A stretch of DNA of 64,000 nt from Actinomyces procaprae (lineage in GTDB: Bacteria; Actinomycetota; Actinomycetes; Actinomycetales; Actinomycetaceae): contig NZ_CP039292.1 in NCBI RefSeq assembly GCF_004798665.1, forward strand, positions 2,542,001 to 2,606,000. The letters run 5' to 3'. The notes under the pieces are model-generated. The model made no database searches. It had not been told where the DNA came from and saw only the letters and a list, made by a program, of their open reading frames with translations. The translations under genes and the position numbers were made by a program. Within the stretch, counting starts at the first letter, position 1. Each line of letters begins with the position of its first letter. Shown in pieces: positions 18,104 to 57,545 of this stretch.

Positions 18104-18236
18104 CTTGGACCGCTCACCCCCGGTTGGACCGCTCACCCCCGGTTGGACCGCCTGAGACAGCGTCTAGAGCGGTCCAAGTAGAGGCTGAGCGGTCCAAGTA
18201 GAGGCTGAGCGGTCCAAGCAGAGGCAGGCGGTCCAC
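18104..18236. repeat. Mirrored tandem array of a 19-20 bp TTGGACC unit (family B, copy 1)
   Basis: The word (C/G)TTGGACC occurs forward at 18104, 18123 and 18142 (period 19). Its reverse complement GGTCCAA(G) occurs at 18171, 18191 and 18211, with a degenerate copy at 18230 (period 19-20). Forward units continue CGCTCACCCCCG; reverse units are separated by TAGAGGCTGAGC. The centre near 18150-18170 contains TCTAGA. The array can fold back on itself. An independent array of the same design is at 41496-41628. Confidence 0.75.
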
Positions 18237-18427
18237 ACGACCCCGCCGACCCGAACACGACCCCGCACGCCCGAGAACGACCTGCACCGGTCGAACACGT
18301 CCTCATAAGCCCGAAACCCTCCCGAACGTGGAGGGTTTGGGGATGACGAGGACGTTCTCGACAAACCAGCACCCACCGAGCACGACCCCGCCGACCCGAG
18401 CACGACCCCGCACGCCCGACAACGACC
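18236..18427 (+). repeat. 47-bp direct repeat, two copies
   Basis: 18236-18282 and 18381-18427 are the same 47-base sequence with two mismatches, starting CACGACCCCGCCGACCCGA and ending AACGACC. Each copy is itself made of two related halves (CACGACCCCGC...). The + strand here is C-rich with few G. No gene spans it. A partial third half-copy follows at 18423-18440. Confidence 0.6.
18314..18338. terminator. Stem-loop with 9-bp perfect stem
   Basis: AAACCCTCC (18314-18322), loop CGAACGT, GGAGGGTTT (18330-18338). On the + strand it ends in TTTGG, weakly like an intrinsic terminator. It lies inside the repeat-dense gap between the two 47-bp repeats. Confidence 0.4.
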
Positions 18428-18561
18428 CCGCCGACCCGAACACGCCCCCGCGCACACCGCGCATCCCGAGCCGAAACCACCACACCCGCAAACCGGAAGA
18501 GCCGTTCTAGAGACTTGGCGGAATCATGCGGAAACCACATCAGGCGATGAACGGAGCAGTT

Positions 18562-18602: not shown

Positions 18603-18807
18603 GACCAGCCTCCTTCGATTGAAAACCACGAACGTTGAGATACCGGGCAAAACTCGCTGTCCGGTCAGAGCGGCAAAGTGACTGAGCGTGCGTCGTCCCC
18701 GGGAGCGCTCACCCGACCGGGCCCTAACCACCCGACGAGCTCAACCACCGGAGCTCCCGACCGGGACAAGAGCCGATTCGAGCACAGGCACCCGTACACA
18801 TCTCGCA

Positions 18808-18886
18808 CCGACCTCGGCACGTAACAACTACCGACCTCGGCACGTAACAACTACCGACCTCGGCATGTAACAACTACCGATCTCGG
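18808..18886. repeat. 23-bp dyad array A1 (four CCGA-N2-TCGG units)
   Basis: Dyads at 18808, 18831, 18854 and 18877, exactly 23 bases apart: three CCGACCTCGG and one CCGATCTCGG. Spacers are CACGTAACAACTA twice and CATGTAACAACTA. The array ends 16 bases before the stop codon of the polyprenyl synthase gene, which reads towards it. The same unit occurs at three other intergenic sites in the window. Confidence 0.85.
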
Positions 18887-41010: not shown

Positions 41011-41495
41011 GGGTTGCGTCCGCACGCGGACCCGCTACCTGCTGCGGTTGGAGCCGGTCGCCTCGCTGTCGGCCGACGACGTCGTGGCGCAGCTGGCACC
41101 CGCGCTGCGCTCGGCGTTGACGCCGCACGGCCCGGGGGCTACCAGGGCCAGTCGGAGGTGAGGCAGGCCTCGATGGCGCGATGGCGGAAGCTGTAGGGCC
41201 GGGTGCGGCGGATGGCGGATAATGCGTCGGGTGAGGTCCAGGCGCTGCGCCGCGGGTTCCATGAGCACCCGGTCGACCCCCCGGCGCCAGCAGCAGGCGG
41301 CCAGCCTTCCATGACAGAGGGCTGGAGGGCGGCCATGCGGCCGGTGTCATCGATGGCATCCAGCGTGATGGTGCGGAAGCGGCGTGCGAAGGTCGCGCCT
41401 GTGAGCGCACGGACAGTGACATGCCGGATACAGCCACGGTCCCGACCCGCCGCAGTAGCCCGGCTATACGCTGCGCGCGGCCGTCGAGCCTGCCA

Positions 41496-41628
41496 GTTGG
41501 ACCGCTTGTTCCCCCGTTGGACCTCTGTTCCCCCGTTGGACCGCTGTGCCCCCGTTGGACCGCCGTAGCCGCCGTTTACAGCGGTCCAACGGGAAGTGAG
41601 CGGTCCAACGGGGCGTGAGCGGTCCAAC
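41496..41628. repeat. Mirrored tandem array of a 19-20 bp TTGGACC unit (family B, copy 2)
   Basis: GTTGGACC occurs forward at 41496, 41516, 41535 and 41554 (periods 20, 19, 19), and its reverse complement GGTCCAAC at 41583, 41602 and 41621 (period 19). Forward units are joined by short pyrimidine-rich linkers such as TGTTCCCCC; reverse units by GGGAAGTGAGC or GGGGCGTGAGC. The turn lies near 41562-41582. Arms of about 60 bases could form a long imperfect hairpin. Same plan as 18104-18236, but the linkers differ. Confidence 0.75.
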
Positions 41629-41879
41629 CAGGGCGGCGCAAGACCCGCCCTCCCCCTTCGGCTGCCGGCAACCAGGCCCACAACACCGCGGAAACGCCGT
41701 GGGCCCTGGCTGCGCACAACGATCCTCACCGAGAACACAGGCCCGCCCACCCGGAGGCACCCACATCACCAGCACCGACCCACCGCCACAAACGACTCAC
41801 ACAACACGACCTAGGCGCATCCCCGGACCGACGGCGCTAGTTTCCGCCGCCGCGCTGACCGGGCCCACCGTCATATCGA

Positions 41880-41935
41880 CCGACCTCGGTACGTAACAAC
41901 TACCGATTTCGGTACGTAAGATCTACCGACCTCGG
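41880..41935. repeat. 23-bp dyad array A2 (three CCGA-N2-TCGG units)
   Basis: Dyads at 41880 (CCGACCTCGG), 41903 (CCGATTTCGG) and 41926 (CCGACCTCGG), 23 bases apart, with spacers TACGTAACAACTA and TACGTAAGATCTA. The array ends 28 bases before the stop of the MFS gene, which reads towards it. Confidence 0.83.
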
Positions 41936-41963
41936 TACGTAACGGCGGCGAGGGGGTTGTGCG

Positions 41964-47655: not shown

Positions 47656-48351
47656 TCAGAACAGGCGGGAGGAGGGGTCGTCCAGGCCGCGCATGGCGTC
47701 GTAGTCCAGCACCACGCAGCGAATACCGCGGTCCTCGGCCAGCACGCGCGCCTGCGGCTTGATCTGCTGGGCGGCGAAGACCCCGCGCACCGGGGTGAGC
47801 AGCGGGTCGCGGTCAAGCATGTCCAGGTAGCGGGTCAGCTGCTCGACGCCGTCGATGCCGCCCACGCGCTTGACCTCCACCGCCACCGCGGCACCGGCCG
47901 CGTCGCGCACGAGCAGGTCGACCGGGCCGATGGGGGTGGGGTACTCGCGGCGCACCAGGCGGAAGCCGGGGCCGAGCACCTCCACCTGCTCGGCGAGCAG
48001 CTCCTGGAGGTGGGCCTCGACCCCGTCCTTGGTCAGCCCGGGGTCGACGCCAAGCTCCACGCTGGTGTCCGAGACGATCTCGAATAGGCGGATGACCAGG
48101 CGGTCGTCGCTCTTGGCGGCGGTCACCTCCCAGCGGACGGTGACGCCGGCCTCGGCGTCCTCCTCATCCGGGGCGACCTCCGCCAGGCGGGCGGGCGGGC
48201 TCATCCAGTTCAGTGGCTTGTAGGAGCCGCCGTCGGAGTGGACCAGTACCGAGCCGTCGGCCTTGACCATGATCAGGCGGGTGGCCCGGGGCAGGTGGGC
48301 GTCCAGGCGGCCGGAGTAGTCCACGGAGCAGGAAGCGATGACGACGCGCAC
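47656..48351 (-). CDS. nucS: Mismatch-specific endonuclease NucS/EndoMS
   Basis: Cleaves both strands at G-T, G-G and T-T mismatches; in actinobacteria it replaces MutS/MutL. The 231 residues start [50 protein letters not shown], the conserved DNA-binding N-terminal domain. The C-terminal RecB-like nuclease has [33 protein letters not shown], with the catalytic D, ExK triad. In related genomes nucS often lies near atpC; here about 6 kb with an accessory operon separates them. A family A array lies 46 bases upstream of the start. Confidence 0.95.
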
Positions 48352-48396
48352 CCCGGCAGCCTACCCGCAACCCGCGCCCGCACCCGCACCCCTCCA

Positions 48397-48498
48397 CCGA
48401 GGTCGGTAGATCTTACGTACCGAGATCGGTAGAAGTTACGTACCGAGATCGGTAGAAGTTACGTACCGAGATCGGTAGAAGTTACGTACCGAGGTCGG
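48397..48498. repeat. 23-bp dyad array A3 (five CCGA-N2-TCGG units, reversed)
   Basis: Dyads at 48397, 48420, 48443, 48466 and 48489, exactly 23 apart: CCGAGGTCGG, three CCGAGATCGG, CCGAGGTCGG. Spacers are TAGATCTTACGTA once and TAGAAGTTACGTA three times. The array lies between the SDR stop and the nucS start. Its units run opposite to arrays A1, A2 and A4, so A3 and A4 form inverted borders of the accessory operon. Confidence 0.88.
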
Positions 48499-48526
48499 TA
48501 GATATGACGCGGCGCATCCGGCTCAG

Positions 48527-49372
48527 TCAGTTCGCCCCGCCCGCGGACAGCGGCCCGTAGTACCAGGAGGCCGTGACACCGCCGTCGGCCAGCACGTCCG
48601 TGCCGTTGATGTACCCGGCCTCCGGCCCCATGAGGAATCCGGCCAGCGCGGCGATCTCATCGGGCGTGCCGGCGCGCCCGGCCGGGGAGAGCTCGAGCTG
48701 CTTGCGGTAGCCGGCGCCGCGCGGCCCCTCGAGCTCGTCGCGCGCCAGCGGCGTGATGACGATGCCGGGACTGATCGCATTGATACGCGCGCCGCGCTCG
48801 CCCCAGGTGACGGCGTTCGCCCGCACCCGCAGGCCGTTGGCCCGCTTGGACATCTGGTATGCGTGCAGCGTGGAGGTGATGGCGCCGTCGGCGAGCAGCG
48901 GCAGGTCGAGCAGCTCACCCGCGGGGGTGGTCGCCAGCAGGGCGTCCTGCTCACGGGTGAGCGCGGGCATGCGGTAGCCGGACTGGCTGGAGATGACGAC
49001 GCCGGAGCCGCCCGGGGCGATCACCTTGCCGAACTCCTCCAGGGCGACGGCAAAGCCGTACAGGTCCACCCGCAGGATGGTGGGAATGTCGGCCTGCGAC
49101 GGCGAGACTCCTCCGGCGAGGATCACCCGGCTGACCGGCCCGAGCGAGGCGGCATGCTCCGCCAAGGCCCGGATGGAGGCGGGGTCGGCCAGGTCCGTCG
49201 TCGTCGCCTCGGCGCTGTAGCCGGCGTCGAGCAGCTGCTCGCAGACCTTCTGCGCATTCTCGAGCCGCAGGTCGGCGACGACGACGTGACCGCCGTTGGT
49301 GACGCGCCGGGCGATGGCGGTGCCGATGGCTCCGGCGCCGAGCAGGACAGTGACGGGAGGTTTTGTGCTCAT
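48527..49372 (-). CDS. Short-chain dehydrogenase/reductase
   Basis: Classical SDR of 281 residues: VTVLLGAGAIGTAIARRVTNGGHVVVADL (NAD(P) glycine loop; the Asp after the second strand favours NAD), the NNAG-equivalent LAGGVSP, catalytic Ser in VISSQSGYRM, catalytic AYQMSKRANG (YxxxK) and ARINAISPGIVITPLA. A 40-residue insertion (about 130-170) lies between Ser and Tyr. It is the last gene of the accessory operon, 79 bases after tetR. The substrate is unknown. Confidence 0.88.
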   Translation of the reverse strand: MSTKPPVTVLLGAGAIGTAIARRVTNGGHVVVADLRLENAQKVCEQLLDAGYSAEATTTDLADPASIRALAEHAASLGPVSRVILAGGVSPSQADIPTILRVDLYGFAVALEEFGKVIAPGGSGVVISSQSGYRMPALTREQDALLATTPAGELLDLPLLADGAITSTLHAYQMSKRANGLRVRANAVTWGERGARINAISPGIVITPLARDELEGPRGAGYRKQLELSPAGRAGTPDEIAALAGFLMGPEAGYINGTDVLADGGVTASWYYGPLSAGGAN

Positions 49373-49451
49373 GAAAGCGATTGTCCGCCTCGGCGCGCCC
49401 TCGGGGCAGGGCCGAGGCAGGCCGCGCCACAGGGGGTCTGAGGGACCCTCC

Positions 49452-50201
49452 CTATCCTCGTGCGCGCCCCTTCCGCTCGGGCGCCGCTGCGCCGTACGTC
49501 ATCTCTTCCAGATTGGCTACGGCCCGATCGACCACTTCGAGTACCTCGGGCAGCAGTCGTTCACACTGGGATTTGGTTGGGGCGGTGTCGGGCTCCAGCA
49601 GCAGACGGATTGTGCGGGCCAACGCGGCGGCCGGGTCGATCGCCGTAGCGTCAGCGCGCTCCGTCACCTTGCCGACGACGAAGCCGGTCATCACCGCATT
49701 GAACACGTAGGCCTGTTCGTGCGCATCCATCTCGGCGTCGTCGCGCATGAGCCCCTCTCGGCGCAGCAGGGGTAGCACACGCAGGCACAACTCCATCGGC
49801 ATGGAACGTTCCAGGAGCTCTCGAGAATCCCGGTGCGCCGCAAGAACTCGCCGCATGAACACGTCTGAGGCAATGAGCTCGACCAGTTCGTGCCGCCACG
49901 AGTCCAGCAGCAGCACCGCCAGGCGCGACAGGCGCAACCGCTCGGGATCACGCACCACCTCCGCGCGCACGGAGCCGATCCACGCCGCGGTCTCGTGGGC
50001 GAGCAGGGCCAGCAGCAGCTCCTCCTTGCTGGGCCAGTACAGGTATGCCGTCCCCTTGCCGACGCCGGCCGCCCGGGCGATCTCGGCAACGGTGGTCTTC
50101 TGGGGACCGTGTATGGCGACCAGTTCCGCGGCGGCGGTAAGGATCCGCTCCGGGAGGGCGGAGGCGGCTACCGCCCTGGGGGCGTGCCCAGGCTTGCGCA
50201 T
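49452..50201 (-). CDS. TetR family transcriptional regulator
   Basis: Protein of 249 residues. The N-terminal HTH (about 18-65) reads ILTAAAELVAIHGPQKTTVAEIARAAGVGKGTAYLYWPSKEELLLALL, a clear TetR DNA-binding domain. The C-terminal ligand domain is all-helical and unassigned. It follows the glycosyltransferase by 18 bases, so it is in the same operon as the genes it probably controls. The 14-bp inverted repeat at the operon promoter (54060-54101) is the best operator candidate. TetR proteins usually repress until a small ligand binds. Confidence 0.92.
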   Translation of the reverse strand: MRKPGHAPRAVAASALPERILTAAAELVAIHGPQKTTVAEIARAAGVGKGTAYLYWPSKEELLLALLAHETAAWIGSVRAEVVRDPERLRLSRLAVLLLDSWRHELVELIASDVFMRRVLAAHRDSRELLERSMPMELCLRVLPLLRREGLMRDDAEMDAHEQAYVFNAVMTGFVVGKVTERADATAIDPAAALARTIRLLLEPDTAPTKSQCERLLPEVLEVVDRAVANLEEMTYGAAAPERKGRARG

Positions 50202-50219
50202 GGGAGCATCATATTGCGG

Positions 50220-51521
50220 TCAATGACTCCAGCCGTCCGAGATCAGCTCGGTGATCGCAGCCGCGGCGGCGGCCGGCCCATCAATCGACCGCAGCTCGAG
50301 CGCCATCCGTTCGGCCCGCGCGCGCAGGCGCCGGCCATTGAGCGCGTCGACCACGAGCGCAGGCCAATCGACGTCGGCCGCCTCCCGGCGTCGAGCCATG
50401 ACCGCCGAGCCGTAATCGACGCAGCGCTGGATGTTGAAGCGCTGCTCGAACTGAAGCGGGATGCCAATGAAGGGCCACCCCTGCACACTGCTGGTCTGCA
50501 CGGTCCCCTCCCCGCCGTGGGTGATGGCCAGGTCGACGGCGCCGCCGAGGCGGTCCGCGGGCAGGCGCCCGGTCACGTGGACATTCGCAGGCAGTCCCGC
50601 CAGGTCGCGCGGATTCAAGTGCTCCCGGACGGGGGCGAGAATCTGGCAGGGCGCATGTGCCAGGCGAGGCAGCACGTCGAGTACCAGTTCCCGTCCGCCA
50701 GACGATCCCACCGCGAAGTAGACAACCGGTTCACCACGGGATGCCAACTCGTTCACCAGCGGGGGAACTGGCCCGGGCAGACTGGCATAGACCGGCCCGA
50801 CCACCCGATGACCGGGCGGCATGTCAACCCAGGACGGAAGCAGATGCGCCGCGGTGGTGATCAGGTTGAGGTCCGCGGTAAAGAAGCGGACCAGATCCTT
50901 ATCAAGATGGACCCCATTGGCCTTGGCGATCCGCCGGAACGAACCCGGCGGGCGAACATGTCGGTTCAGCCTCGTCAAGGCGCGCGCGACAAGATCGTCA
51001 ACGGTCTGCCGCGCGGGGGTGGTGCGCGCGAGGACGCCCGTGGCGGATGAGTCGCGCACCGCCTGCAGGTGGGCCAGGGAGTAGGCGAAGGGACGGACGA
51101 ATACCAGCGGGACTCCTTCGGCCCGAGCGGAGATGAACTGGCTGAGCGTGGCACCTATGACGACCGCAGACGGACGGAGATCGCGTATGAGCGACCGCTC
51201 GGAGGCGACCCTGCCGGCGAGCAGCTCGTCGGTGAAGGGGTTGCGCAGTGCGCGTCCCTGATCCAGGGCGAGAAGCGCCCGCGCATCAGCGTCATCGAGG
51301 CGGGGGCTCAGGAGACGGTACTCGAACCCGGCCTCCTCAATGATCTCCCGATTGCGGTCGGAGTACCCGGCGAACACACATTCAACGTCGGGCGGCAGGC
51401 GCCGGGCGATTGCGACTCCCCGAGTCACCTCGGCGACGTTGAAGTTCTCCGGGGCGAACAGGACCCGAGCCCGCCGCCCCAGTACTGTCCACTCGCCGTC
51501 AGCCGAGATCGCCATTGGCAT
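50220..51521 (-). CDS. GT-B fold UDP-glycosyltransferase (MGT/YjiC-like)
   Basis: Family-1-type glycosyltransferase of 433 residues. RVLFAPENFNVAEVTRGVAIARRL starts the N-terminal acceptor domain; the C-terminal donor domain has GEPVVYFAVGSSGGRELV, NVHVTGRLPADRL and the nucleotide-sugar motif THGGEGTVQTSSVQGWPFIGIPLQFEQRFNIQRCVDYG (about 334-371). Relatives glycosylate macrolides, rifamycins, sterols and other hydrophobic compounds. Its start lies 23 bases inside the 3' end of the phosphotransferase gene, so the two are translationally coupled. ATG at 51521 or 51515. The acceptor is unknown; a xenobiotic or antibiotic is inferred. Confidence 0.85.
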   Translation of the reverse strand: MPMAISADGEWTVLGRRARVLFAPENFNVAEVTRGVAIARRLPPDVECVFAGYSDRNREIIEEAGFEYRLLSPRLDDADARALLALDQGRALRNPFTDELLAGRVASERSLIRDLRPSAVVIGATLSQFISARAEGVPLVFVRPFAYSLAHLQAVRDSSATGVLARTTPARQTVDDLVARALTRLNRHVRPPGSFRRIAKANGVHLDKDLVRFFTADLNLITTAAHLLPSWVDMPPGHRVVGPVYASLPGPVPPLVNELASRGEPVVYFAVGSSGGRELVLDVLPRLAHAPCQILAPVREHLNPRDLAGLPANVHVTGRLPADRLGGAVDLAITHGGEGTVQTSSVQGWPFIGIPLQFEQRFNIQRCVDYGSAVMARRREAADVDWPALVVDALNGRRLRARAERMALELRSIDGPAAAAAAITELISDGWSH

Positions 51522-54012
51522 CTCCCATCGATTCGTCAGCCATCACAGACGGGCCACTCATTTCCGGCATCAGCAGCGTGACGACGCCGGCCGAACCGTC
51601 CACCTCGATCGGTTCGCCGTCGCGAATCCGCGCGGTGGCGCCGTCGGCTCCGAGCACTGCGGGTATGCCGTACTCCCGGGCGATGATCGCGGCGTGCGAC
51701 AGCGGCCCGCCCGCATCGGCGACGACGCCGGCGGCCAGGGAGAACAGCGGCGTCCACGACGGGTCGGTGAACGGGCACACCAGCACCTCCCCGGCACTCA
51801 GGCGCCCGAAGTCCCGCGGCCCTAGGATCACCCGTGCCCGTCCGCGGGCCCGGCCGACGGCGGACGGAAGTCCGCGCAGCACCAGTCCTTCTGCGGGTCG
51901 GGAGTCGACCGACCCAGCCGCCTCTGTTGCGCCGCAACTGCGCCTCCAGGCCTCCCGGGCCCGCGCGCGGGCGTTCTTGCGTCGGTCGACCAGGCTCGTC
52001 AGTTCCACCTCCGCGGTAAGGGTCAGCGCCCGACGCACCTCGGCGTCGTAGAGCAAAACCACATCCTCCGCCTGCTCCAGCACGCCGCCGGCCACCAGCC
52101 TGCCGGCGATCTCAGCCATGACCCGGCGGGCCTGGAAGAAGAACTCCTCAATCAGGTACAGGGTGCCCTCCCGTCCGACGTGCAGGGCGCGCTGTCGCGC
52201 CACGGACCGGTACCAGCGGCGGCGCAGCGGCGCAGGCAACCGGGCCGCCACGTCCTGCAGCACGGCGGGCCTGTTCCGGGGCTCAATCTCCGTCCGCTCG
52301 CGGGCCGAGGCGCTCATACCACGCAGTTGTGCCGCAATGAGTCCGATCAGGTCCTCGGGACGCTCGCGCCATGACCTGGCGGAGAACGCCAGGTAGGGCG
52401 ATCCGGCGCGAGCACCGTAGTCATCGAGGAACTGGTGCAGCTCGGCGTGAAACCGGTGTCCCGCAGGCGCGGCGTCAAGCTCGTCCAGGAAAGGCTCCGG
52501 CCCGTCCCGAAGCAGCCTGCGCTCCAGCCCGAGTGCGTGCACCCGCTCGGCCAGGCGCGCGATCCCGGCGTTAGCCGCCGCGGTCACGTAAGACAGATCC
52601 CGGTAGAGGTCCTCCTCCTGCACGCCGTCTCCCAGGCCTGCCATCGCCGTCAGCCGCATGGTGACCGCCCGGTTCACGGTGAGAGGCACGAGGTAGTTGC
52701 GGTAGCGGTCGTGCAGGACGTGGGCGGCGGCGTCGACCGTTTCATCCAGAAGTCGGAGGAGCGTTGCCGAATCCGCTTCGGTGCATCGATCGATGCACCG
52801 GGTGAGACGAGTAAGGCTTCTGCGGATGGCGGCCTCCTCCTGGGGCCAACGCCCGGGATCATGGCGCAGGCTGCGCCCGACGACGGCGGGCAGGCGCGTG
52901 AGCCTCCACAGCCTCTGCGGCGGCAGGGACGCGTGCAGGCGTATGACGCCGTCGGCGTCGCCTTGAAGCAGTGCCTCCGGGGCGGGAGGATTGAACCCGG
53001 CGCGGGACAGCAGCGCCGCTACGGCCTCGACGAGCCGGTGCGCGGCGCGCAGGTCTAGGGGGTAGGGGCAGGGCAGGTGCTCAGCCACGTCCGCCCGGAT
53101 CAGTTCCTCCGCGCGGGCGCGCATGGATCGCGGTGCGGCGGAGCCGACCCGGCCGGCGAAGGCGGTCACCGGCCTGGCCTGGAGGAGCACGACCTCGCCG
53201 TCGCACAGCGCCCACTCGATGTCCTGCGCGCATCCGTAGTACTCCTCCAGGCGCCTACCGACCTCCAGCAGACGGAGCAGCTGATCGTCGTCGAGGCACA
53301 GTCGGTTGCGGTCGGCCACAGGGACCCGAGTGGTGACGACGCCCTGCGGGCCCTGGTCCATCCGAGTCTCCTTGGACCCCAGGGTTCGGCTGACGATTCG
53401 CGGCGGGCTGGCACTCAGCCTGAAGACATCGGGCACCACGAGCCCGGAGACCACGCTCTCCCCGAGCCCGTACGAGGCACTCACCACCGCCGTATCCGCC
53501 GCCCCGGCGACCGGGTCGCGGGTGAATAGCACGCCGGAAACGGTGGGCTCTACCATCCGCTGGACGACGACGGCGATCGGTGCCGCTTCCGCGACCCCCC
53601 GGCGACGGCGGTACTCGGCGGCCCGCTCGTTGAAGGCGGATGCCCAGCAGGTACGCACGGCGTCGAGCAGTGCAGCCGCGCCCGACACGCCCAGGACAGT
53701 GTCGTGCTGCCCGGCCAGGCTGGTTTCGCGGCCGTCCTCATCGGTGCCCGAGGAGCGCACCGCGACTGCGGGCCGTCCCAGCCGGTCATAGGCGTCGAGC
53801 AGGGCGGACTCACACCCGGGAGGAAGTGGGAGCATGCTATTCGTCTGCCCATCAACTGCGTCCGACCGAGTGGCGGCTAGGAATGCCTCGGTGGTGACAC
53901 AGAAGCCGTCGGGGACGGGCAGACCGAGCCGCCGACACCGCGCCAAGGAGGCACCCTTGCCGCCCGTCAGCGAGCCGTTGGAGGCTTCGGCGTCGTCGAG
54001 CCAGAGAATCAT
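51499..54012 (-). CDS. Rifampin-phosphotransferase-like PEP-synthase family enzyme
   Basis: Protein of 837 residues with the PEP synthase/RPH architecture. The N-terminal ATP-grasp domain has GGKGASLARCRRLGLPVPDGFCVTT, AVRSSGTDEDGRETSLAGQHDT, VVVQRMVEPTVSGVLFTRDP and DIEWALCDGEVVLLQARPVT. A variable helical central domain (about 320-690) would bind the acceptor. The swivelling His domain has VCPFTDPSWTPLFSLAAGVVADAGGPLSHAAIIAREYGIPAVLG with catalytic His773. There is no PEP-binding barrel, so it is not a PEP synthase. FTDPSWTPLF, the length and the domain order resemble rifampin phosphotransferases. I start at ATG 54012 (MILWLDDAEA, with TGGAAG upstream); the frame opens at TTG 54075. The true substrate is unproven. 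Confidence 0.82.
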   Translation of the reverse strand: MILWLDDAEASNGSLTGGKGASLARCRRLGLPVPDGFCVTTEAFLAATRSDAVDGQTNSMLPLPPGCESALLDAYDRLGRPAVAVRSSGTDEDGRETSLAGQHDTVLGVSGAAALLDAVRTCWASAFNERAAEYRRRRGVAEAAPIAVVVQRMVEPTVSGVLFTRDPVAGAADTAVVSASYGLGESVVSGLVVPDVFRLSASPPRIVSRTLGSKETRMDQGPQGVVTTRVPVADRNRLCLDDDQLLRLLEVGRRLEEYYGCAQDIEWALCDGEVVLLQARPVTAFAGRVGSAAPRSMRARAEELIRADVAEHLPCPYPLDLRAAHRLVEAVAALLSRAGFNPPAPEALLQGDADGVIRLHASLPPQRLWRLTRLPAVVGRSLRHDPGRWPQEEAAIRRSLTRLTRCIDRCTEADSATLLRLLDETVDAAAHVLHDRYRNYLVPLTVNRAVTMRLTAMAGLGDGVQEEDLYRDLSYVTAAANAGIARLAERVHALGLERRLLRDGPEPFLDELDAAPAGHRFHAELHQFLDDYGARAGSPYLAFSARSWRERPEDLIGLIAAQLRGMSASARERTEIEPRNRPAVLQDVAARLPAPLRRRWYRSVARQRALHVGREGTLYLIEEFFFQARRVMAEIAGRLVAGGVLEQAEDVVLLYDAEVRRALTLTAEVELTSLVDRRKNARARAREAWRRSCGATEAAGSVDSRPAEGLVLRGLPSAVGRARGRARVILGPRDFGRLSAGEVLVCPFTDPSWTPLFSLAAGVVADAGGPLSHAAIIAREYGIPAVLGADGATARIRDGEPIEVDGSAGVVTLLMPEMSGPSVMADESMGDANGDLG

Positions 54013-54056
54013 GGCGCTTCCATTCAGCGGTCGGGGCGCGGGGTACGCCGCAACCA

Positions 54057-54101
54057 ATTCTGACTGCCTGACCAAAACATGTCAATCGGTCAGTCAGTCA
54101 G
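54057..54101 (-). promoter_or_regulatory. Promoter with 14-bp inverted-repeat operator for the phosphotransferase operon
   Basis: On the minus strand TTGACA (54085-54080), 17 bases, CAGAAT (54062-54057) form a good sigma-70-type promoter. The arms CTGACTGACTGACC (54101-54088) and GGTCAGGCAGTCAG (54073-54060) are inverted repeats with one mismatch in 14, separated by 14 bases that include the -35. A dimeric repressor pair here would block the polymerase. The predicted transcript starts near 54050, about 38 bases before the ATG. The TetR protein three genes down is the natural candidate. Confidence 0.6.
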
Positions 54102-54158
54102 ACGGGCGCCGCCACACCCGCTCACGAACCATGCTGGTATCCCCACCAACCACATCAA

Positions 54159-54302
54159 CCGACCTCGGTGGTTATAACTACCGACCTCGGCACGTAACGT
54201 CTACCGATCTCGGTGGTTATAACTACCGACCTCGGTGGTTGTATCTACCGACCTCGGTGGTTATAACTACCGACCTCGGCACGTAACGTCTACCGATCTC
54301 GG
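54159..54302. repeat. 22-23 bp dyad array A4 (seven CCGA-N2-TCGG units)
   Basis: Dyads at 54159, 54181, 54204, 54226, 54248, 54270 and 54293. Two spacer types are mixed: 13-base CACGTAACGTCTA and 12-base TGGTTATAACTA (once TGGTTGTATCTA). The array begins 58 bases upstream of the phosphotransferase promoter dyad and ends 14 bases before the DUF2550 stop. It is the longest of the four arrays. Confidence 0.88.
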
Positions 54303-54316
54303 CGAGGGACTTGGGG

Positions 54317-54712
54317 CTAGAAGAGGGTGGGCTGGGAGGGGGCGGCGGACTCGATCCAGGCGACCAGCGCGGAGTGCGAGTCCTCCACCATCGCCAGCTC
54401 GAAGCGCTCGCCGCGGTAGCGGCACGGAACATCCACCACGTGCCCGCCCTGGCCGCGGCGGTGCACCGGGCCCAGCTCAAGGTCGTCACGCCGAAAGCGG
54501 CGGCGACGACGCAGCCCGAAGGACACCAGCCGGTGCCACTCCAGGTCGTCGTCGCCGAAGACCGCGATGCCACTGATCCAGCGTGCGCTGCCGGCCGGAC
54601 GCAGGGCACACTCGAAGGAGCCCACCCGTCCGGCCAGAAAACGCAGCCGCAACAGGAATCCTCCGGTGAGGGCAATGACCACGATCGCTACGGCGACGAC
54701 CAGTTCCCACAC
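54317..54712 (-). CDS. DUF2550 family membrane-anchored protein
   Basis: Actinobacterial protein of 131 residues, normally found directly downstream of atpC. One N-terminal membrane anchor (VWELVVAVAIVVIALTGGFLLRLRFLA), then a soluble domain with GSFECALRP, WISGIAVFGDDDLEWHRLVSFGLRRRRRFRRDDLELG and ELAMVEDSHSALVAWIESA. The GTG start at 54712 has GGAGGAG eight bases upstream and lies 14 bases after atpC. Function is unknown; the conserved position suggests a link to ATP synthase expression or to the neighbouring envelope genes. Confidence 0.88.
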   Translation of the reverse strand: MWELVVAVAIVVIALTGGFLLRLRFLAGRVGSFECALRPAGSARWISGIAVFGDDDLEWHRLVSFGLRRRRRFRRDDLELGPVHRRGQGGHVVDVPCRYRGERFELAMVEDSHSALVAWIESAAPSQPTLF

Positions 54713-54726
54713 CGGAATCTCCTCCC

Positions 54727-55074
54727 TCAGTCCCGTATACCCACGCCGGGAATGACGATGGTCTCCGCAATAACGTCGCTCACGGCGACGGTGGAGTCAG
54801 TTACCTCCGTGCCGACGGCGTCGGCCGCCACGGTCACCACGTCGCCGTCGACAGAGCAGAAACCGCCCGCCACCGGCATGCTCACCTCGTCGCCGTCAAT
54901 CGGGGCGATGCGTACACTGCCGCGCCCGAGCACCGCCAGGATCGGCTGCCGCCCGGGCAGCACGCCGAGCTCGCCGTCGGGCAGCGGAACCGAGACCCGG
55001 GTGGCTGCGCCGGCCCAGGCCTCGCCCCCGTAACGGGAGACCACCTCCACCTGGAGGGTGCGGTCGCCGGGCAT
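54727..55074 (-). CDS. atpC: ATP synthase epsilon subunit
   Basis: Rotor and regulatory subunit of F1, 115 residues: MPGDRTLQVEVVSRYGGEAWAGAATRVSVPLPDGELGVLPGRQPILAVLGRGSVRI matches the epsilon beta-sandwich (usually G-x-GxLPGHxP). The C-terminal helical hairpin is short or absent, as in several actinobacteria; the end is instead DSTVAVSDVIAETIVIPGVGIRD. ATG 55074 sits one base past the atpD stop (overlapping junction); the longer frame is not supported. Confidence 0.9.
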   Translation of the reverse strand: MPGDRTLQVEVVSRYGGEAWAGAATRVSVPLPDGELGVLPGRQPILAVLGRGSVRIAPIDGDEVSMPVAGGFCSVDGDVVTVAADAVGTEVTDSTVAVSDVIAETIVIPGVGIRD

Positions 55075-55075
55075 G

Positions 55076-57545
<2,470 letters not shown>

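Follow-up and report, generated by a model that had tools for sequence, protein, structure and literature searches.

In this study, we have examined a four-gene operon in a window of 64,000 nucleotides (G000:C1:2542001-2606000), the whole stretch of DNA that was analysed, which comes from a genome of 3.6 Mb assembled as one contig. The four genes lie on the minus strand between nucS (47656-48351; NF002876, 380 bits) and the pair formed by DUF2550 (54317-54712) and atpC (54727-55119). From the promoter onwards they encode an RPH-type dikinase (51499-54012; 837 amino acids from its ATG, or 858 if counted from an upstream TTG), a GT-B glycosyltransferase (GT; 50220-51521; 433 amino acids), a TetR-family regulator (49452-50201; 249 amino acids; PF00440, 1.2e-16) and an SDR oxidoreductase (48527-49372; 281 amino acids; NF005395, 383 bits against a cut-off of 280). 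Pfam and NCBIfam concur on the family types of all four proteins, and the dikinase and GT genes share a 23-bp overlap (51499-51521); with these coordinates and families, both the operon and the overlap stand as originally predicted. The nucS-DUF2550 interval of this genome holds no open reading frames (ORFs) other than these four, and the neighbours that we tested are AlkZ-like, NucS, DUF2550 and ATP synthase genes. Because the nearest relatives of the dikinase carry Actinomyces names (among the matches listed from a protein collection, the closest, at 97% identity, bears the name Actinomyces ruminicola and further ones that of A. succiniciruminis), we assign the window to Actinomyces; the names of these relatives, taken by themselves, would also point to a rumen habitat of the host.

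Candidate operator and accessory gene content

The dikinase gene is preceded on the minus strand by a sigma-70-type promoter-like site, TTGACA-17-CAGAAT (54057-54085), which is the only one returned by the promoter search between 48300 and 54400 (shuffled sequences gave a mean of 0.5). By reading, a similar site occupies the same place in all four TetR-bearing loci, with CAGAAT, CAGAAT, CAGGAT and CATGAT as second hexamers. Over this promoter lies an inverted repeat, CTGACC-N14-GGTCAG (54068-54093, unstranded), a probable TetR operator that is kept in 4/4 TetR-bearing genomes (G000, G058, G014 and G052). The operon thus encodes a regulator with a TetR DNA-binding domain (PF00440) and has an inverted repeat over its own promoter, which suggests that TetR, presumably by binding this repeat, controls the operon. 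This supports the ligand-responsive control of the original prediction, which would rest on a switch of the TetR type; its candidate operator and the promoter-like site recur in each of the four loci. Distant RPH-type dikinases were also surveyed, in a scan with two generic patterns that drifted to the wider family and of which the best 80 loci were kept (the neighbourhoods of relatives with 40-49% identity are not among them). In Sphaerisporangium, Haladaptatus (on a plasmid) and Nonomuraea (loci L204, L218 and L220), a TetR-like gene is found just upstream of such a dikinase, and TetR control of these enzymes may therefore have arisen more than once.

The content of this interval varies strongly among relatives. 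All 49 Actinomyces genomes searched (our own included) have nucS, and in 43 of them DUF2550 is in the same fetched stretch (none there in G008, G009, G019, G021, G039 and G045); the two had been described as frequent close neighbours, and less than 600 bp indeed separates them in 19/43. A full-length dikinase of at least 77% identity is present in only four of the 49 (G000, G014, G058 and G052), that of G058 having a stop near the end of the match and lacking about a dozen C-terminal residues. TetR orthologues (E <= 1e-12) occur in the same four genomes, and in all four carriers the close dikinase and TetR are found at this locus only. The full set of four genes is restricted to G000: G014 and G058 have SDR-TetR-dikinase, G052 has TetR-GT-dikinase, G055, G005 and G051 have the SDR without the other three, G020 has the GT with an acyltransferase-like gene, and G061 has an SDR remnant. 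By reading, the gap between TetR and dikinase in G014 and G058 retains both ends of the GT gene, which argues that the GT was deleted there. Presence and absence at one site among relatives (dikinase and TetR in 4/49), as expected of a mobile cassette, bears out the accessory nature that had been proposed for the operon.

Weaker relatives of the dikinase, partial or split, were seen elsewhere in four genomes (G018:C1:2479673-2480343, G062:C1:2517435-2518019, G044:C18:12503-13066 and G054:C1:1279300-1281433), and these are possibly decaying copies. By eye, a divergent membrane acyltransferase-like gene is a frequent cargo of the interval (G004, G015, G016, G020, G024, G040, G047, G049, G062 and G018); that of G020, the one tested, has an HGSNAT_cat/DUF418 match in Pfam.

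The operon has also moved between lineages. By rpoB, and by the DUF2550-atp stretch that forms the right flank, G014/G058 group with G012, in which the interval is nearly empty (195 bp), whereas the left flank (alkZ-nucS) groups them with G000, and each data set rejects the other grouping (approximately unbiased test, AU; p = 4e-22 for rpoB, 3e-6 for the left flank and 5e-74 for the right). For SDR, TetR and dikinase, G014/G058 are nearest to G000, with nucleotide identities of 96% for the SDR and 89-90% for the dikinase; the dikinases of G000 and G052 are 82% identical, though the rpoB genes of these two are closer (95.9, against 94.5-94.6 for G000 and G014/G058). Since flanks, rpoB and operon genes conflict in their grouping, the block alkZ-nucS-operon was most simply exchanged between lineages by homologous recombination. 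Of the two crossovers in G058, the right one (resolved in 50-bp blocks) lies about 100-150 bp inside the coding end of DUF2550, past the repeat array described below, while the left signal is a mosaic that fades 2-4 kb past nucS with no pinned point. These AU tests agree with the mobility that had been suggested for the operon. Plasmids do not appear to carry close kin: the 17 plasmid records with relatives are all below 60% identity, and just one of these matches spans at least 80% of the query. Between 47000 and 56000, no structured RNA was found by Rfam at gathering score, and an anti-phage role was rejected, none of the four proteins having a PADLOC match at E <= 0.001.

Proposed function of the enzymes

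The dikinase has the domain order of RPH, with an ATP-grasp domain (residues 1-285), a middle substrate-binding domain (about 296-700) and a C-terminal phosphohistidine swivel domain (about 709-817) that contains His773. All tested catalytic residues are kept: K19, R86, T105, R614-E615 and H773 correspond to Lys22, Arg117, Thr136, Arg666-Glu667 and His825 of RPH-Lm. The fold match of the middle domain, together with the residues of the His relay, places the protein in the wider group of RPH-type small-molecule dikinases. The plan of phosphoenolpyruvate (PEP) synthase and pyruvate phosphate dikinase, with a mid-chain His domain and a C-terminal pyruvate-binding domain, was not found, His773 being one of 837 residues and PF01326 and PF00391 the only Pfam domains; the PEP synthase equivalogs TIGR01418 (305 bits, cut-off 740) and NF005057 (317 bits, cut-off 598) are both failed. 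The GT has a GT-B fold, and natural-product GT1 enzymes, many of them biosynthetic, are among its nearest structures. The architectures of dikinase and GT thus fit the earlier idea of two enzymes for capping hydroxyl groups.

Based on our in silico results, we think it probable, with some reserve, that these genes form a self-contained, ligand-induced conjugation (detoxification) operon for a hydroxylated hydrophobic compound. TetR, sitting on the inverted repeat over the dikinase promoter, would keep the operon off until an incoming compound of this kind released it. The dikinase would then place the beta-phosphate of ATP onto His773 and swing it over to one of the hydroxyl groups of this compound, the GT would attach a sugar there or at a different hydroxyl, and the SDR would reduce or oxidise a carbonyl or hydroxyl, so that the enzymes together would leave an inactive or more polar product. 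Enzymes of the same plan act on rifampin, on zearalenone (as described in the accessible part of PMC11768653) and, as two chains, on plant phenolics (accessible part of PMC12167813), and by this analogy a hydroxylated aromatic or polyketide is the likely compound. As the host is related to rumen species, a phenolic taken up with feed would be no less plausible than an antibiotic.

Several points weigh against this proposal. The inverted repeat is a single site in the 3.6-Mb genome, but about 0.4 sites per genome would be expected from base composition (a rough estimate), so that its uniqueness alone is weak evidence, and it is rather its position and conservation that are striking. A TetR-like gene stands beside the dikinase in just 3 of the best 80 distant loci, a count from which dissimilar regulators would escape. 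By reading, the GT family has Asn28 at the position of the usual GT1 catalytic residue, which we take to be His, and this makes the chemistry of the GT uncertain. The genes do not form an obligate set (SDR without the other three in G055, G005 and G051; GT missing in G014 and G058; SDR missing in G052), so that the three enzymes need not act in a single pathway. Finally, the profiles of the prodigiosin ligases RedH (393 bits) and PigC (354 bits) score about as well on the dikinase as the RPH profile (387 bits), all far under their own cut-offs, which makes biosynthetic ligation possible.

This last point underlies the alternative that fares best, the tailoring or ligation of a specialised metabolite. 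PigC and RedH are thought to activate their substrate by phosphorylation, and the dikinase could do likewise while GT and SDR decorate the product and TetR senses an intermediate; the many biosynthetic enzymes among the nearest GT structures would suit such a role. However, the interval offers four ORFs only, with AlkZ-like, NucS, DUF2550 and ATP synthase neighbours, and genes that are lost singly between close relatives are better suited to accessory detoxification than to an ordered pathway. We therefore regard it as unlikely, if worth keeping in mind. Catabolic entry, in which the dikinase would phosphorylate a feed-plant phenolic (compare HpeHI, CreHI and PpsAB) with GT and SDR as side activities, seems distinctly less probable still, as no carboxylase, hydrolase or ring-cleavage gene is found among the four ORFs of the interval and a sugar-adding enzyme is ill-suited to catabolism.

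Returning to conjugation, one could narrow the proposal to a three-reaction operon (phosphorylation, glycosylation and ketone reduction) directed at a phenolic macrolactone from feed, for example zearalenone, or at a similar plant or fungal compound. Each reaction has a precedent in the accessible parts of the respective sources: phosphorylation of zearalenone by a Bacillus phosphotransferase (PMC11768653), its glucosylation by a barley glucosyltransferase (PMC5331437) and its conversion to alpha-zearalenol in rumen fluid (PMC7911295), for which an SDR might be the agent. In the literature searched, the three reactions were not found as one regulated operon, and we give this narrow version a slim chance.

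The family A arrays

Two arrays of a short repeat, family A, bracket the operon. Array A3 (48396-48510, plus strand; 23-bp unit, with 4.7 copies and a score of 186 over 48396-48502) lies about 26 bp past the SDR stop, and A4 (54158-54302, minus strand; 45-bp period, also 22, score 227) lies about 13 bp past the DUF2550 stop, upstream of the operon promoter. They are mutually inverted, as the original prediction had it, with 91% complementarity over 44 bp. Two further family A arrays are present in the window (18807-18886 and 41879-41943). The family A core is far commoner than chance would give: across the 3.6 Mb of the genome, 159 exact matches lie on the forward and 188 on the reverse strand, and the reversed control pattern has 0 on either. 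As the core is nearly palindromic, some sites are counted on both strands. The bracketing alone is unremarkable: within the listed stretch of the genome, 9 out of 45 successive core clusters are at most 6 kb apart, and two arrays would be inverted to each other half of the time.

The position of the arrays relative to genes is more telling. Of the 25 arrays examined in G000, 21 have a gene 3' end no more than 35 bp away on one side or both, and 28 three-prime but only 1 five-prime array sides are this close to a gene end (sign test p = 1e-7, with sides treated as independent). The 25 arrays are the four of the window and those of 20 fetched regions (one with two arrays), which represent 20 of the 21 forward-listed clusters with at least two cores outside the locus, all from the genome short of its last 1 Mb. 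Gene calls for this count were made with a basic codon model for which ten genes of the window served as training set, and only distances to gene ends were used, the orientation of the arrays being unreliable in this count (the units are near-palindromic, and the call conflicts with our reading at 41879). In several cases, a family A array occupies the gap between two convergent genes, in contact with the 3' end of each. The simplest reading of these positions is that the arrays serve as 3'-end punctuation of transcription units, by factor-dependent termination or mRNA-end protection; by position, A4 would mark the end of atp-DUF2550 and A3 that of the operon, and neither is judged part of the operon mechanism. 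Two points speak against punctuation: 4 of the 25 arrays do not adjoin a 3' end, and neither A3 nor A4 has an intrinsic-terminator-like site, so that it would need another mode. Folding of the arrays gives long hairpins (z -4.0 to -8.5), as expected of any tandem palindrome.

A different reading is that the operon is a mobile cassette moving by recombination between the inverted arrays. In favour of this, most of the seven closest genomes have family units on either side of the interval, by eye in the same relative orientation, and array remnants were indeed met at a nearly empty site: G012 retains a two-unit array by DUF2550. Such remnants nevertheless tell against arrays as cassette ends, because the arrays occur whatever stands between them. 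In addition, the sampled arrays sit at gene 3' ends, the one mapped right crossover is inside DUF2550 and beyond the array, the interval has no recombinase, and the close dikinase and TetR are confined to this locus in all four carriers. In G014, which has three of the genes, the DUF2550 side lacks an exact family A core and by eye has family B-type units instead; with a more permissive pattern, a single match turned up at a distance of 138 bp. A Y1 transposase (PF01797) was found in 0/12 Actinomyces genomes by a search that was positive in 5/14 reference genomes used as control. We thus rejected the arrays as cassette ends, and an array-mediated cassette is largely refuted, with hardly any probability left to it. 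More generally, arrays that flank a variable region are no evidence of a cassette where, as in this genome, arrays usually sit at gene 3' ends.

Counted on both strands, core matches are most numerous in the seven-genome clade (G000 347, G005 211, G058 93, G014 61, G052 50, G055 44 and G012 34); outside it, G047 has 47 and the other 41 genomes have at most 25 each. Near family A arrays, at 18105-18451 and 41487-41628, the window has another repeat family, whose unit of 19-20 bp contains TTGGACCGCT / AGCGGTCCAA, and by eye similar units replace the family A array beside DUF2550, upstream of the dikinase, in G014. Among known repeats, REP/BIME elements are alike in being short palindromic units at gene 3' ends, in hundreds of copies and with strong hairpins (accessible parts of PMC2817692 and PMC3733652, the latter describing GTAG-tagged palindromes); they differ in that family A forms tandem 22-23-bp arrays and comes with no Y1 transposase in the 12 Actinomyces genomes. 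Among the papers listed for such repeat arrays, none mentions Actinomyces.

Comparison with known systems

The closest known enzyme is RPH (RPH-Lm, PDB 5FBS/5FBT/5FBU and 5HV1-3; NF041857), with which the dikinase shares the domain order, all tested catalytic residues and the fold of the middle domain. Unlike RPH, it fails the curated profile NF041857, with 387.2 bits against a cut-off of 999, which 7 of the 10 proteins taken from other genomes clear with scores of 1397-1662 bits (the remaining three gave no family at E <= 1e-200). In a quick tree of 63 rows (36 of 120 listed relatives, from 1145 over the threshold, 23 of the best 80 distant loci and 4 Actinomyces proteins), these seven RPHs, assigned by profile and not by assay, form a clade of their own with a support of 100, and the dikinase falls in a 44-row group on the opposite side of a split supported at 96. 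The rifampin-contact stretch HQQMMTD (Gln336/Gln337; HQQMM) is present in 7/7 RPH rows and in 0/44 rows of the group of the dikinase, which also differs from RPH in belonging to an operon with its own TetR. With profile score, tree position and motif all contrary, we rejected rifamycin, which had been suggested as the substrate, and inactivation of rifamycin by a bona fide RPH with a rifamycin-type GT is the least probable of all the explanations considered, despite the domain order, fold and catalytic residues of RPH. The idea of a mobile detoxification cassette consequently survives in its accessory occurrence and its exchange between lineages, and is given up for the arrays as its ends and for rifamycin. 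The best reading of these protein comparisons is that the dikinase belongs to an uncharacterised clade of RPH-type dikinases. The adjacent TetR and its predicted operator give a regulatory handle on this clade: the ligand could be found by a reporter screen with the operator, and it would in turn point to the substrate of the dikinase.

Two other systems come near. As described in the accessible part of PMC11768653, ZPH/ZPH1101 of Bacillus has three domains (ATP/metal, His and substrate) and conjugates a foreign phenolic macrolactone; this comparison is by description and not by sequence, and that part of the source does not mention an operon with GT, SDR and TetR. HpeHI, CreHI and PpsAB are alike in combining an ATP-grasp with a swivel/substrate domain and in a His relay to a phenolic hydroxyl (accessible part of PMC12167813). 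They differ in being two separate chains with a catabolic role; HpeI matches the ATP-grasp part of the dikinase. As for the GT, it is only 14-20% identical to OleI, YojK, CalG1 and GtfD, has Asn28 at the place of the usual GT1 catalytic His, and fails all macrolide-GT cut-offs (MGT 57.2/260, Mgt 21.5/700 and OleI 22.5/700), so that its fold is all that speaks for a macrolide as substrate, the profile scores being far under the curated cut-offs. Neither the four-gene combination nor this dikinase clade was met in the literature that we found. The parts of the operon are of known kinds, and what appears new is their combination and the clade to which the dikinase belongs.

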